The notes beneath the pieces are model-generated. The model was not told where the DNA came from, searched no databases, and saw only the letters and a list, made by a program, of their open reading frames with translations. Below are positions 8,282 to 63,800 of a stretch of DNA of 64,000 nt, in pieces. Both the position numbers and the translations under genes were made by a program. The stretch covers positions 930,001 through 994,000 of the forward strand of contig CP126203.1 in the NCBI GenBank assembly GCA_030272155.1. The letters run 5' to 3'. Every line of letters begins with the position of its first letter. Within the stretch, counting starts at the first letter, position 1. This DNA is from Tetradesmus obliquus (lineage: Eukaryota > Chlorophyta > Chlorophyceae > Sphaeropleales > Scenedesmaceae).

Positions 8282-11200
8282 ATGCGTTCTTCGTCAGCCT
8301 TTTCTGTCCTAGCTCGTGCTCGTGCCTTGCTAGCGTCTAATCAAGCTGCAGCAAGTCGATCCCAGATTGGCGTGAGCCTTAAGCGACACTCTGGCACATG
8401 GGTGGACGGAAAGTAAGTCGGTACCAGCTGCACTGCAGCAGCAGCAGCATAAGTAGCAGCAGCAGCAGCACCACCACCAGCAGCAGTGCCAGCAGCAGCG
8501 CAAGTACTAGCAGCAGCATTAGCTGCAAGCGCAGAGCAGTAAAGCACACAGCAAGTGTATCTTCCTCCACTGCAATTCACAGCAGCGCTGCTATGGTTTA
8601 CTGGCAGCTGGGAGGCCCGTGCCTGACATGTCTCGCTGCATGTCCTGCCCACAACCCTCATTTCCAATGCTAAAAACGCTTAGCTCAAACCACTCTTTCA
8701 GTTGTGCTGACACTGTATTTACCAGAGGCCATACAAAAGCAGTGGATAAGTTCACAGGATGCCCTGGGTCCTGGCAGACACTCAAAAAATATGTGTGTTG
8801 CGTGCAGGGGCTATGAGCACTTCGGCAGCAGGGGGCCTGCATGGGGCTCCCAGACAACGCGGCTGCTGCTGGGAGGCACAGCAGCGGGGGGCTTTGCTTA
8901 CTACTGGAGCTGCAGGTGAGCTGCAATGTTCAAAATTAGCAACTAATCAACTGTAAGAGTTGAGTGTGGAGCGCAACATGCGTAGCAGGCAGGAGGTGCT
9001 TTACACACACAGGCACCACCATACCACTGTCACCAGTTGCAGGGGATCTGTGAAGCAGATTCATGTTATAGTGTTGCACACTGTTGAAAAAACTGTGACG
9101 TCACGACCCCGCAGGCAGGAGGTGCCCTGCATGCACCGGCACCATCATATCACTCTCACCAGTTGTGGAAGCTCTGTTTGCAGAGCCATGTCGTGTGTTA
9201 CACTGCTTGTTACAATCTGTTTACGACCCTGCAGGCAGGAGGTGCCCTACACGCACCGGCACCACGCCATCATGATGGTCAGCAACAAGATGGAGCTGCA
9301 CATTGGGGAGCAGACCTTCCATGAGGTGCGTGTTGTTTTGATTTGTTGCAAACCAAGAGAGATAGAGGGGGTACATGTTGTGTTCATGCGGCAAGATCAA
9401 TCAATGTTGCGAATCATGATGCATATGTTTGTAACACAAAGATCGCATAAATTGACACAACAAGGGGATCGTGCCGACAAAGCCGCAGCAGCAGCAATTG
9501 CACAGAATGATACCACAGCTGCCAATGCAAAAGCACACTTCCTACGGGGTTTGTGAAATCTTTTGCACATGTTGGCAAATACATTCTACTGCCGCTACTG
9601 CTGCCGCTGATGCTGCTGCTTGCCTGCTTGCAGGTCATACAGCAAGCCACCATGACCAACACGCTGCTGCCGCAGAACTCACACTACGCACACCTAGTCA
9701 GGCGCGTGGGCATGCCCATAGCTCAGGTGAGCGTTGCTGCAGCCGTGTTTTTGATTTTGAGAGGCACCTTGGTGCAGTGGAGGCTAGTTTGATCTAGGGT
9801 TCATGCACCAGATCAAGCAGGCATGTAAGCATGGGGTGCGTGGGCATGCGCACAGCTCAGGTAAGGGCTGCTGCAGCAGCGGCAGCTTCTGCCAGCACAG
9901 CGCTGCAGCTGGGACGCCTTGCAACCATTTTGTCTTTGAACTGCTTCGGCTGCCGCCACTTTTTCAGTACTGCTGCTGCTGCTGCTGCGCAGGTTGCTGC
10001 TGATGGCGCTGGTGGTGGCTACCACAAGCACATGCAGCACCTAGACTGCTGTCACTACTGCTGCTGCTGCTGCTGCTGCTGCTGATGCTGTGCAGGTTGC
10101 TGCTGATGGTGCTGGCGGCGGCTACTACAAGCACATGCAGCACCTGGACTGGGAGTTTGCGGTGATCAACAGCCCTGACGTGAATGCCTTTGTGGCCCCA
10201 GGCGGCAAGGTGGTGGTGTACACAGGTGATCTGAATGGCACTGCTAGTCATACAGAAGGCAGTTCATAGGCCAATCACCATGAGAGCGACTACCTTGGGA
10301 AATGCATGCTGAAGTGAACTGGTGCCACTGGCATGTGCTGCAGCTGGGCTTCTTTCTATTCGGATGGCAGGTGCACAGCTGCCCGCATGCTGGTATGCAT
10401 GCTGGCCAACATACTACAGCTGGGAGTTCATGTGCATTGCTGCTGCTACTGCTGTTGCTGCTGCTGCTGCTGCTGACGCCTGCAGGCCTGCTGAAGCTCG
10501 TCAGCAGTGAAGATGAGCTGGCTGCTGTGCTGGCGCACGAGGTGGGCTGCTGCTGCTGCTGCTGCTGCTGCATGAGAGGTGCACTACTGACATATCGCCG
10601 TCTGAATGATGTGGCATCACGGCTGTTTGGCGTACGCCAAACATGCACATCAGGTGCGGCTTTTGGCGTGAACTGCATCTTCTGCGTGCTTTGCAGGTTG
10701 GCCACGTGCTTGCACGGCACCATGCGGAGCGCATCTCTCAGCTGAATGTGACGGGGCTGCTCAACATGCTGGTGCGGGCACTGCTGGGAATCCAAATACC
10801 AGGCGCTCTGGTGGTGCTGGGCATGTTCCTACCATATTCACGGTGAGAATATGGCTGTGAAGTATGCATCTGCCACGGGAAATTTTGGTTTTCCTGTAGC
10901 GTGCTGGTGTGCGCACTGCTGGGGATCCAGGCGCGCTGGTGGTGCTGGGCATGTTTCACGGTGAGAATTAACCTGTGAAGTATTCAAATGCCACTGTGAA
11001 CTTTGGTTTGTACATACGTGTGCTGGTGCGCGCGCTGTTTGGTATTCACATACCCGGGGCGCTGGTGGTGCTGGGCATGTTCCTCCCACACTCACGGTGA
11101 GAACATGGCCGTGAACTATGTGTGGCACTGTGAAGTTTTGGTTGTCCTTTAGCGTGCTGGTGCGGGCACTGCTGGGCATACAGATACCTGGGGCGCTGGT

Positions 11201-60800: not shown

Positions 60801-63800
60801 ATTTTGACGGACTTTCCGCGCTATTTGAACTAGAATGGTTGCAAAACCGCGACGCACACGGCAAGCGACCACAAACAGCGCAGCAGAATGGCCAGACTGG
60901 CGGTCACAACACAAACTCACCGCCAGGCGCGCCGCCAGGCTGGCTTGCACATGCTCACTCGCAAGCACCTCCTTCACCCGCCCCTCCACAAATTCAGCCA
61001 GCAGCCGCTCCAACTCTTCTGTAATGAGGGACTCCTCCAAAGCAGCGCGTGCCCTGTGGCAGCAGCAGCGGCAGCAGCAACAGCAGCAGCAGCAGCAGCA
61101 GCAGCAGCACGATGTGAGTGTGTTGCAGCCCCTCCAGCTCTTCTGTGACAAGGGACTACAACAGGGCAGCACAGGCCCTGCGGTGGCAGCAGCAGCAGCA
61201 GCAGCAGCAGCAGTCAAAGGATATGCAACTGTGCTGGCTCCTTACAAGCCGCACAAAGCTGGAGAGAGTCAAACTGCATTCAACATGCATTGCACTAGAC
61301 TTGGCACACCAGGTAAAGCTTGCAGGACAGCTTGCAGGAAGCACATGCATAACAACCACCCTGCACTCCCTGCCGCTCACTCCGCAAGCTCCTCTTCAGC
61401 CGCTGCCGCTGCTGCAGCTGCTGCAGCAGCCTTTGCAGCAGCAGCCCCCTCACTCTCAGGACTCCTGCTGTGGCTGCGGCTGCGGCTGCGGCTTCGGCTC
61501 CTGCTGCTGTCCCCGCCGCTCCTGCTGCTGCTCCTGCTCCTGCTGCTGCGCTTGCGCCGTTGCCTTTCCTTGCTCCTGCTCCTGCTCCTGCTGCTGTGCT
61601 TCCTAGCTGGCTTGCCTCGTTCGCCACTCCTGCTCCTGCTCCTGCTGCGGCTGATGCTGCCTCTGCGCTTGCTGCCGCTGCGGCTCCTCGCCCGGCCCCT
61701 GCTGCTGCTGCGCCTGCGCTTGCTGCTGCCACTGACCTCAGCACCCCTGCGCTTGCTGCCGCCCCTAGTAGCCTCATCCCCAGCAGCAGCAGCAGCAGCA
61801 GCAGCAGCAGCAGGTCTAGCACTATCGCTGTCGCGGCGCCTGTCAGAGGGAGCCGACGGCCTATCGATAGTGGGCCGAGTCCTGTCGCCCCTGTCAGCTC
61901 CTTTTGTGTGGTCCCTGTCTCTGCTGCTGTCCCTGGCACGGTTCTTGTCCCGCCTGCTGCTGTCACTGGGACGGCTGGGCCTGTGGGTGGCTGAGTCCCT
62001 GCCGGTGCCTCCTGCAAGCAAGACACAAGGACAGTTTCAAAGTGTTACTAAGAGTAAGGTGCCAGACAGGGCAGCATGGGTCTGTCGTTGGGCCTGCTTG
62101 GCCTGTGGCTAGCTGCATCCCTGCCAGCACCTCCTGCAAGCAAGACAGCAGTTGTGAAACAGACAGGGCAGCATCAAGTCAGATCCTGTCTCTGCTGCTG
62201 TCCCTGGTGCGGTCCTTGTCCCGCCTGCTGCTGTCGCTGGGCCGGCTGGGCCTGTGGCTAGCTTAGTCCCTGCCAGTGCCTCCTGCAAGCACAACAGCAA
62301 GACAGTTTCAAAGTGTTACTCAGAGTAAGGTGCCAGACAGGGCAGCATGGTTCTGTCGTTGGGCCTGCTTGGCCTGTGGGTGGCTGCATCCCTGCCGGTA
62401 CCTCCTGCAGGCAAGACAGAAGTTAAACGCAGACAGGCAGCTTGATTTCAAAAAGATATGAGACAGGACAAGTGGGTAACAACAGCTGATCCTGTGGGCG
62501 CTGGGCCTGCTCGGCCTGTGGGTGGCTGAGTCCCTTCCAGTGCCACCTGCAAGCAGACAGCGCAGCATAGCTGTGAGACAAAGCAGGGAGGAGAAATGTG
62601 CATCAAGAGCTGGGCCGGCTGGGCCTGTGGCTGGCTGCACCCCTGCCAGTGCCTCCTGCAAGCAAGACAGCAGTTTGACAACATACGTGGCAGCATCAAG
62701 TCAGGTCCTGTCTCTGCTGCTGTCCCTGGCGCGCTCTTTGTCCCGCCTGCTGCTGTCGCTGGGCCGGCTGGGCCTGTGGCTGTCTCTTACGGTGCCTCCT
62801 GCAAGCAACACAGCAGGACATTGTACAAAGAAGCTGTCAGACAGAGCAGTATGTTTGTCCCGCCTGCTGCTGTTGCTCGACCTGCTGGGCCTGCGGCTGG
62901 CTGCATCCCTGCCAGTGCCTCCTGCAGGCAAGAAAGAAGTTCAAATGCAGACAAGCACCTTGATTTCAAAAAGTGAACGAGACAGGACGAGAGGGTAACA
63001 ACAGCTGATTCTGTAGGCGCTGGGCCGGCTGGGCCTGTGGGTGGCTGAGTCCCTGCCAGTGCCTCCTGCAAGCAACAAAGCAGGACAGTTCAAAAGTGAG
63101 GCTTCAGACGGGCAAGTTTGGGTCGGTCGCTGGGGCCATGTTGGTTGCTGTCGCCGCCAGCACCTCCTGCAAGCAGAGGAATTCATATCATATGAATCAA
63201 ATGCAGGCAGGGCAGTGTTGCTGTGATGCAAAAGTAATCAGGACTTCCGCACCCTGCTGCCACCCACCTCTCCCTCCAGGCGAGCTGCGCCGCCTGTCCC
63301 TGCTCCTGCTCCTGCTGCGGCTGCCGCGCCTGCCACTGCCACTGCCACGCTTCAGCTCCTGCTGCTGCTCCCTGCCACGCTGCCTGTCCCTGTCCCTGTC
63401 CCTGCCGCTAGCTCTATCTCTGTCCTTCTCTTTGTCTCTGCTGCTGCTGCGCCGCCGCCGCCGATCTCTGCTGCGGCTGCGGCTGCGCAGAGCATCCTGC
63501 TTCTTATCCTTGTCAGCGCGTGCCCTGTCCTTGCTCCTGCTCCTGCTGCGGCTGCGGCTGCGGAGAGCTGCCTGCTTGTCCTTATCAACACGTGTCCTCT
63601 CTCTGCTGCGGCTGCGGCTGCGGGGAACTCCCTGCTTATCCTTATCAACACGCTTGCTGTCCCTGCTGCGGCTGCGGCCACCACGGGAGCGGTCCGGCTG
63701 CTTGCTCTTATCAGCCTTGTCTGCTATTTCTACCTTGTCTGCTGCATCTGCCCTGCCTGCCGCTGCCGCTGCTGCTTTTCCTGTCTCTGCTTTGTCTGCT

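Follow-up and report, generated by a model that had tools for sequence, protein, structure and literature searches.

Tandem genomic duplication is recognized as one way in which introns are gained, as stated in the accessible parts of PMC4974935 and of PMC3443670, where Hellsten 2011 and Gao and Lynch 2009 are cited for it. Here we describe exon-edge copies in the green alga Tetradesmus obliquus, for which the accessible part of PMC5966456 gives a mean intron length of 462 bp, the longest among the five green algae tabulated (230–302 bp in the others). We analyzed a 64-kb stretch of its genome (contig CP126203.1, C13:930001-994000; hereafter the window), which contains the gene of the M48 peptidase OMA1, and found that many exons are accompanied by incomplete local copies, with the 5' part of the exon repeated upstream and the 3' part repeated downstream in transcription order. 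These copies are genuine and widespread in this alga, beyond the window. The explanation that we favor, with a probability of about three in four, is recurrent short tandem duplication across splice junctions, which would be mostly neutral and would lengthen introns while the protein remains unchanged.

The DNA examined comprised the window and 25 further stretches of 10 kb, that is, 314 kb of a 104.66-Mb genome in 17 contigs. Repeats were identified by masked self-comparison, in which periods of up to 30 bp were masked and short units are detected less well. All 151 repeat pairs of the window with members no more than 4 kb apart were direct and none was inverted, and the more distant pairs included 17 direct and 3 inverted ones. 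A similar search of 20 other 10-kb stretches, taken at round-number positions from all 17 contigs, gave 182 direct and 10 inverted pairs. Direct and nearby copies, as tandem duplication leaves them, are thus found both in the window and in the other stretches. Exon models were obtained with a small ab initio gene finder of our own, trained on OMA1 and 18 helicase exons, which predicted 34 genes and 275 exons in the window and the 25 stretches. For the 267 predicted exons of up to 500 bp, we searched 1.5 kb on each side for copies outside predicted exons. Copies containing the 5' edge of the exon were classified as heads and copies containing the 3' edge as tails, and whole-exon and mid-exon copies were assigned to neither class.

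The original prediction had proposed self-alignment and classification of the copies by side as its check, and on the ab initio exon models the pattern that it described was recovered: in the window, 21 heads were upstream and 0 downstream, and 30 tails were downstream and 0 upstream (75-98% identity to the respective exon), besides 13 whole-exon and 7 mid-exon copies. The genome-wide spread that it had anticipated was borne out by the same bias in the 25 other stretches, with 40 heads upstream and 7 downstream, 71 tails downstream and 3 upstream, and another 31 whole-exon and 27 mid-exon copies. Its statement that no clear copy lies on the wrong side holds for the window. When all DNA was pooled (heads 61 up and 7 down, tails 101 down and 3 up; Fisher p = 1.4e-34), 162 of the 172 head and tail copies were on the predicted side; the 10 wrong-side rows stay in this count and were not singly inspected, and the 5 wrong-side rows of an earlier version of the analysis include 2 on predicted exons of 37 bp. 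Altogether, the 250 copies comprised 172 heads or tails, 44 whole-exon and 34 mid-exon copies, and 109 of the 267 tested exons had at least 1 local copy of any class. A head was present upstream of 31/234 acceptor-bearing exons and a tail downstream of 48/234 donor-bearing exons. This one-sidedness is expected because a tandem duplication across one splice junction, with the protein kept, leaves only the inner site usable. The side rule is therefore geometry plus protein conservation; it adds nothing beyond direct, local and tandem and is no separate phenomenon, but it does discriminate tandem duplication from dispersed copying.

The clearest case is OMA1 itself (8282..12770, plus strand, approximately 9 exons). 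Splicing the gene by hand at the innermost sites produced a protein of 343 aa that matches T. obliquus P0001, on which Pfam PF01435 was identified, with 99% identity over 100% of its length and is 85% identical to P0002, which is labelled as a transcript-derived open reading frame and has the same length. The OMA1 proteins P0001-P0003 do not contain the extra copies. Around exon 3 (9235..9325), two head copies are located upstream (8985..9019, 89% identity, and 9103..9144, 93%). The exon at 9634-9726 has a tail copy downstream (9835..9872, 84%), and a segment comprising the acceptor region and the first part of exon 5 (10092-10151, with the exon start assigned by hand) recurs upstream at 9989..10048 (92%, spacing 103 bp). 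Four tail copies of the exon at 10697-10842, starting at 10902, 11021, 11155 and 11291, follow within 10902..11365 (75-89%). The exon ending at 11867 is preceded by two head copies with a period of 129 bp (11416..11703) and followed by four tail copies (11969..12425, 77-98%), and the last exon is followed by three tail copies (12819..13036, 88-92%), with the stop codon in place in at least two of them. Our ab initio model wrongly fused one of the 11416..11703 head copies to its exon, and the homologous protein does not contain it. Since the innermost sites restore the conserved OMA1 protein, the copies are supernumerary and the innermost sites those that code. The coding exon reads GMPIAQ at 9701-9726, where six of seven fetched relatives have Arg (P0001-P0005 and P0007) and P0010 has Ala; the downstream tail copy at 9835-9872 reads GMRTAQ and thus carries the Arg.

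The glutamate-cysteine ligase (GCL) gene in stretch L013 is organized in the same manner. The 484-aa Scenedesmus acutus protein, a full-length algal record, is covered once by the coding exons (92-99.5% identity, except for one row of 79% that runs into an intron at its end), and the additional matches are either tails on the downstream side or a head on the upstream side. Tails are located downstream of exons B and C, five tails downstream of exon E, and a head upstream of the last exon, after which the protein end recurs; a tail copy of exon D was detected both in the copy search and in the alignment rows of P0121. The exon-C copy contains a stop codon, and the GCL proteins P0122-P0125 and P0128 do not contain the extra copies. 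At L013:3195-3452, the T. obliquus annotation P0121 (OEZ86, 445 aa) reads in frame through the exon-D tail copy and is 49 aa longer than P0123 (396 aa); this extension may be a gene-model error or an isoform. At the level of proteins, both OMA1 and GCL are restored via the innermost sites with no new intron required. Measured against full-length algal proteins, in both genes the extra copies are supernumerary and the innermost sites are the coding ones. From the 92 Pfam hits to helicases, 18 were taken in list order; hits with internal stops or in open frames longer than approximately 200 aa were skipped, as was, for no given reason, C11:3478329. Clear edge copies were present at 8 of these 18 exons (heads upstream at 4, tails downstream at 5 and no reversed case; edges read by eye), and one further case was weak. 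Near one helicase exon, L040:580-739 contains a 64-bp tandem repeat that is 100% identical over 96 bp, a very young array with an unusually short unit.

The copies recur at short distances. Among the 138 direct-repeat clusters in the 314 kb, the smallest spacing was 75-165 bp in 108 and below 75 bp in 1, the lower edge of this range being less certain than the upper because of the masking and the low power for short units. Some clusters are head-to-tail arrays with a steady period (for example 129, 155 or 127), and in others the spacers cannot be aligned. The share of sequence occupied by clusters is 44% in the window and averages 20% over the other stretches, 5 of the 25 having none; the window is thus copy-rich yet not unique. 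Local direct repeats account for 20.5% of the predicted intron bases, and cluster density is higher within predicted genes, at 0.56 per kb, than outside them (0.33 per kb, where missed genes are possible). Of the 82 clusters within predicted genes, 75 reach an exon edge (0.91), compared with 55.2 ± 3.6 expected and a maximum of 66 in 500 rotations, although the gene models may inflate this preference as the finder can call copies exons. In OMA1 and GCL, 12/12 clusters are at an exon boundary, with rotation means of 4.1 and 3.3 of 6 (P 0.05 and 0.04); exon edges in this test are approximate to a few bases, and the test scores only overlap between cluster and boundary. If a unit of 100-150 bp were placed uniformly in the ancestral introns of the two genes, the expected share would be 0.65 and 0.51 per event (P = 0.0013, with estimated ancestral lengths). 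The edge share expected from uniform placement is 0.59 for 300-bp introns and 0.77 for 200-bp introns. In a simulation, edge duplications had a 1.3-fold detection advantage over purely intronic ones (389 versus 294 of 600), and with this correction the expected shares rise to about 0.66 and 0.82, respectively. At 1.3-fold, detection bias was rejected as the source of the enrichment. The edge preference therefore holds firmly if introns had 300 bp before duplication and is marginal if they had about 200 bp.

Intron length increases with copy number, the medians being 300 bp for introns with no copy (n = 179), 414 bp with 1 (31), 569 bp with 2 (15), 959 bp with 3 (7), 618 bp with 4 (5) and 1058 bp with five or more (4). 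The rank correlation of 0.36 agrees with the claim that the process lengthens introns, but the mean length with no copies (454 bp) is not below that with one copy (427 bp), and long introns can hold more copies.

We propose that short stretches, mostly 75-165 bp copy to copy, would be repeatedly duplicated in tandem in this genome. A doubled acceptor stretch would read intron end, exon start, intron end, exon start and exon remainder, and only the inner acceptor would restore the protein. The copy adjoining the intact exon body would still code, and the other would become a truncated edge within the intron, an acceptor with a head upstream or a donor or stop codon with a tail downstream; repeated rounds would produce arrays. 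Units of 75-165 bp are near the size of nucleosomes and of Okazaki fragments. The mutational step could be slippage or flap/end-joining repair, and selection would then act on the protein. Because a truncated copy has a single splice site, it presumably could not be defined as an exon and would be tolerated, and the innermost site would pair with the other end of the real exon by exon definition. In the accessible part of PMC2397502, the cassette-exon fraction of C. reinhardtii is given as 22%, and cassette exons are said to be often ascribed to exon definition.

Several properties of the copies bear on their later history. Splice dinucleotides are mostly kept in them (GT in 78/94, AG in 56/61), and the competing splice sites of the original prediction are accordingly present, though as candidates by sequence, so that the word competing has to be qualified. 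Differences between the functional edge and its copies at codon positions 1/2/3 were 208/183/514, a surplus at position 3 that is expected anyway because the functional edge changes silently while the copy is free, and that is raised by the high GC there (0.78). At the 39 edges with at least 2 copies, changes private to the functional edge were distributed 5/3/28, those private to the closest copy 15/11/30 with three new stops, and those private to the next copy 37/31/60. In the 36 of 63 nearest copies with an aligned intron side, the intron differs at 18.9% and third codon positions at 20.2% (p = 0.52). Gap columns numbered 220 beside 1438 aligned intron sites and 30 over 2114 exon bases. Taken together, the copies appear to be neutral or almost neutral. 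A strong coding constraint, suspected from the helicase loci, was dropped after systematic tests left a modest third-position excess. Likewise, a sharp end of homology at the splice junction in most copies was given up: intron homology was found in 60/155 copies by a strict test, in 30/63 nearest copies by a cruder one and in 36/63 by a better-aligned one, and by eye several seemingly non-homologous intron ends appear diverged rather than unrelated.

Not all observations sit well with one round of blind duplication followed by decay, and the following weigh against our explanation. Differences from copy to copy also favor third positions (120/110/241), and in the nearest copies positions 1+2 differ by 6.4%, whereas copies free of any constraint should differ there by 9.5%, one half of the intron figure. 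Intron-side homology is lacking in 27/63 nearest copies, though third-position divergence is 17.2% there versus 20.2% in those with it, and intron identity does not track the divergence of the exon part (rho 0.12, p = 0.35). Among nearest copies with at least 95% exon identity, only 5/13 have intron homology in a cruder test; in the strict test, 8/22 copies with at least 97% exon identity have none, some of these 8 being at array edges or in low-complexity sequence. The edge enrichment also exceeds uniform placement despite the detection advantage, and the simple model explains it only for pre-duplication introns of about 200 bp. In L030, L018 and L029, single copies match in 50/50, 54/55 and 31/32 exon bases beside unalignable intron sequence. 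The exon and intron parts therefore have uncoupled histories, and one tandem event with plain decay is insufficient. The tandem duplication spanning splice junctions that had been predicted thus stands as to copies that are local, direct and one-sided with innermost coding sites, but the exon and intron parts do not age together as a one-step origin predicts. We prefer to supplement recurrent duplication with later recombination, gene conversion or unequal exchange within the exon part, which together with fast indel turnover in introns could have uncoupled the two; the residual constraint on positions 1+2 may stem from bias, from a limited use of the copies or from their conversion by the functional exon. 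Alternatively, a lineage-specific process with a nucleosome-like unit of 75-165 bp could prefer exon-intron junctions, with the exon part of the copies kept alike by conversion or residual use while the intron part drifts. We regard this as unlikely but worth keeping in view; if it is true, growing introns would amount to a record of exon edges, and this alga would have to select its splice sites by exon definition throughout.

Among the rivals to recurrent neutral duplication, use of the copies as alternative or poison exons, or as alternative splice sites under purifying selection, would account for the retained splice dinucleotides and for the low rate of change at positions 1+2. By eye, all differences are silent in L043 (9/9) and in the first L037 copy (6/6), and in 3 of the 80 copies with at least 5 differences all are at third positions (1.35 expected); the reading of P0121 through the GCL exon-D tail copy, in an annotation perhaps from the same strain, also fits such use. 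Nevertheless, the second L037 copy and the L041 copy have replacement changes by eye, the third-position share is homogeneous across copies (p = 0.19), and spacing modulo 3 (0/1/2) shows no surplus of in-frame copies (nearest heads 7/10/14, tails 13/17/18). Gap totals are indivisible by three in 30/162 alignments, the GCL exon-C copy has its stop, and the OMA1 and GCL proteins named above do without the copies, all of which makes selected use improbable. Splicing-linked or RNA-templated copying of exon edges up to the splice site, instead of blind DNA duplication, would be in line with arrays at exon edges beyond expectation, with the 95/155 copies failing the strict intron-homology test, and with an ungapped identity that drops from about 0.87 in the exon to 0.55 on the donor side and 0.47 on the acceptor side within 10-15 bp of the junction. 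We consider it quite improbable in view of the intron homology in the better-aligned test, of the AG that head copies carry themselves, and of the inner ends of the copies, which lack a consistent AG or GT (62 listed, by eye). The same inner ends led us to discard mini-exons bounded by cryptic splice sites.

An origin from transposon-like introners that inserted into exons and produced long duplications on their flanks would suit the lineage, since the accessible part of PMC9860276 reports introners primarily from fast-evolving lineages such as green algae. Similarity between loci, however, involves merely 0.7% of the predicted intron bases in the 314 kb sampled of 104.7 Mb, and similar sequence across many unrelated introns was not found; this origin is very improbable. 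Nothing was found in favor of an assembly artefact, which is hardly credible because most copies visibly differ from their exon, unlike falsely duplicated reads, and because the OEZ86 annotation, though maybe of the same strain, shares the GCL exon-D tail copy and the intervening peptide.

Elsewhere in the window, gene models other than that of OMA1 are partly wrong. The 29682-40957 model takes in a repeat array of period 39, a 3.2-kb array at 30967-34209 with approximately 84 copies of a 39-bp GCA-rich unit that forces false giant exons in gene prediction. The claim that all multi-exon genes here have such copies could be followed for OMA1, SNAPC3 and GH16, whose identity was confirmed, but the SET, F-box/LRR, WSC, ARGLU1 and secreted-protein assignments were unconfirmed. 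The 3' part of a SNAPC3 exon (50084..50296, plus strand; Pfam PF12251), which was recognized from repeat pairs and is absent from the exon-model table, recurs downstream at 50354-50438 and 50678-50790. A GH16 exon head (52226..52313, minus strand; Pfam PF00722 on 52130-52306) has a copy upstream in transcription at 52373-52460 (98.9% identity); the spacer between them measures 59 bp, 30 of them masked. An SR-like multi-exon ab initio model (57847..63937, minus strand), which the original prediction called ARGLU1-like and for which no homologue was found, has heads of 61737-62011 and 59652-59798 upstream and tails of 59652-59798, 58551-58657 and 57847-57943 downstream. The predicted exon at 37141-37315 (minus strand) is flanked within 36694..37623 by three downstream tail copies and two upstream head copies (83-90%). 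In L030, a predicted exon of 110 bp (7855-7964, minus strand) has an identical 50-bp head copy upstream and a 57-bp tail copy downstream that together cover it except for about 3 bp, as if broken at one point. A 136-bp repeat (20179-20314 and 20883-21018, 704 bp apart, 91% identical), with ATGGCTTCC... in both copies on the minus strand, perhaps represents two tandem starts of a secreted-protein gene. Two regions 40 kb apart (16735-16852 and 57208-57325, minus strand) encode the same peptides (EQKQELHMLI and VPLPPKGIVALRDGADQV) at equal spacing, which suggests a dispersed element or a segmental copy.

Altogether, most of the pattern is explained by a type of event that is already known, here at an unusual density; less expected features beyond it are the size of the unit, the edge preference and the uncoupled exon and intron histories. 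The prediction that the event is known in principle agrees with PMC3443670 in its accessible part. As to density, no description of such arrays in Tetradesmus or Scenedesmus was found among the titles and starts of abstracts listed in the literature searched, which left most subscription papers outside, and the accessible parts of PMC5966456 and PMC8226300 do not mention them; this is weak evidence of novelty. The arrays show apparent intron lengthening in progress, at a density sufficient for statistics (109/267 exons with a local copy), and provide natural experiments on how the spliceosome chooses among near-identical sites. They also mislead gene prediction: our own predictor mistook edge copies for exons, and one public annotation may be affected too.

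Intron gain by tandem genomic duplication, with which the name of Rogers is reportedly also associated, is similar in that splice-site sequence is doubled and the protein survives by the choice of one site pair. In that process, however, an exonic stretch with AGGT is duplicated and a new intron arises, whereas here the duplication would span an existing junction, the intron already present becomes longer and the added sites seem unused. Tandem arrays that yield alternatively spliced human introns, said to have been described by Zhuo in 2007, likewise contain splice sites; here the units are truncated edges in a compact algal genome, with no evidence of alternative use. Minisatellites and other short tandem arrays share the head-to-tail direct arrangement of a few copies, but here the spacing is mostly 75-165 bp and the arrays are at exon edges. 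Mutually exclusive exons, which arise by tandem exon duplication, also provide extra local copies, but duplicated exons are whole exons with both splice sites, and here 44/250 copies are whole and 172/250 are only heads or tails. Finally, introners, reported in green algae, also act on introns, but the arrays described here have hardly any sequence common to different loci.

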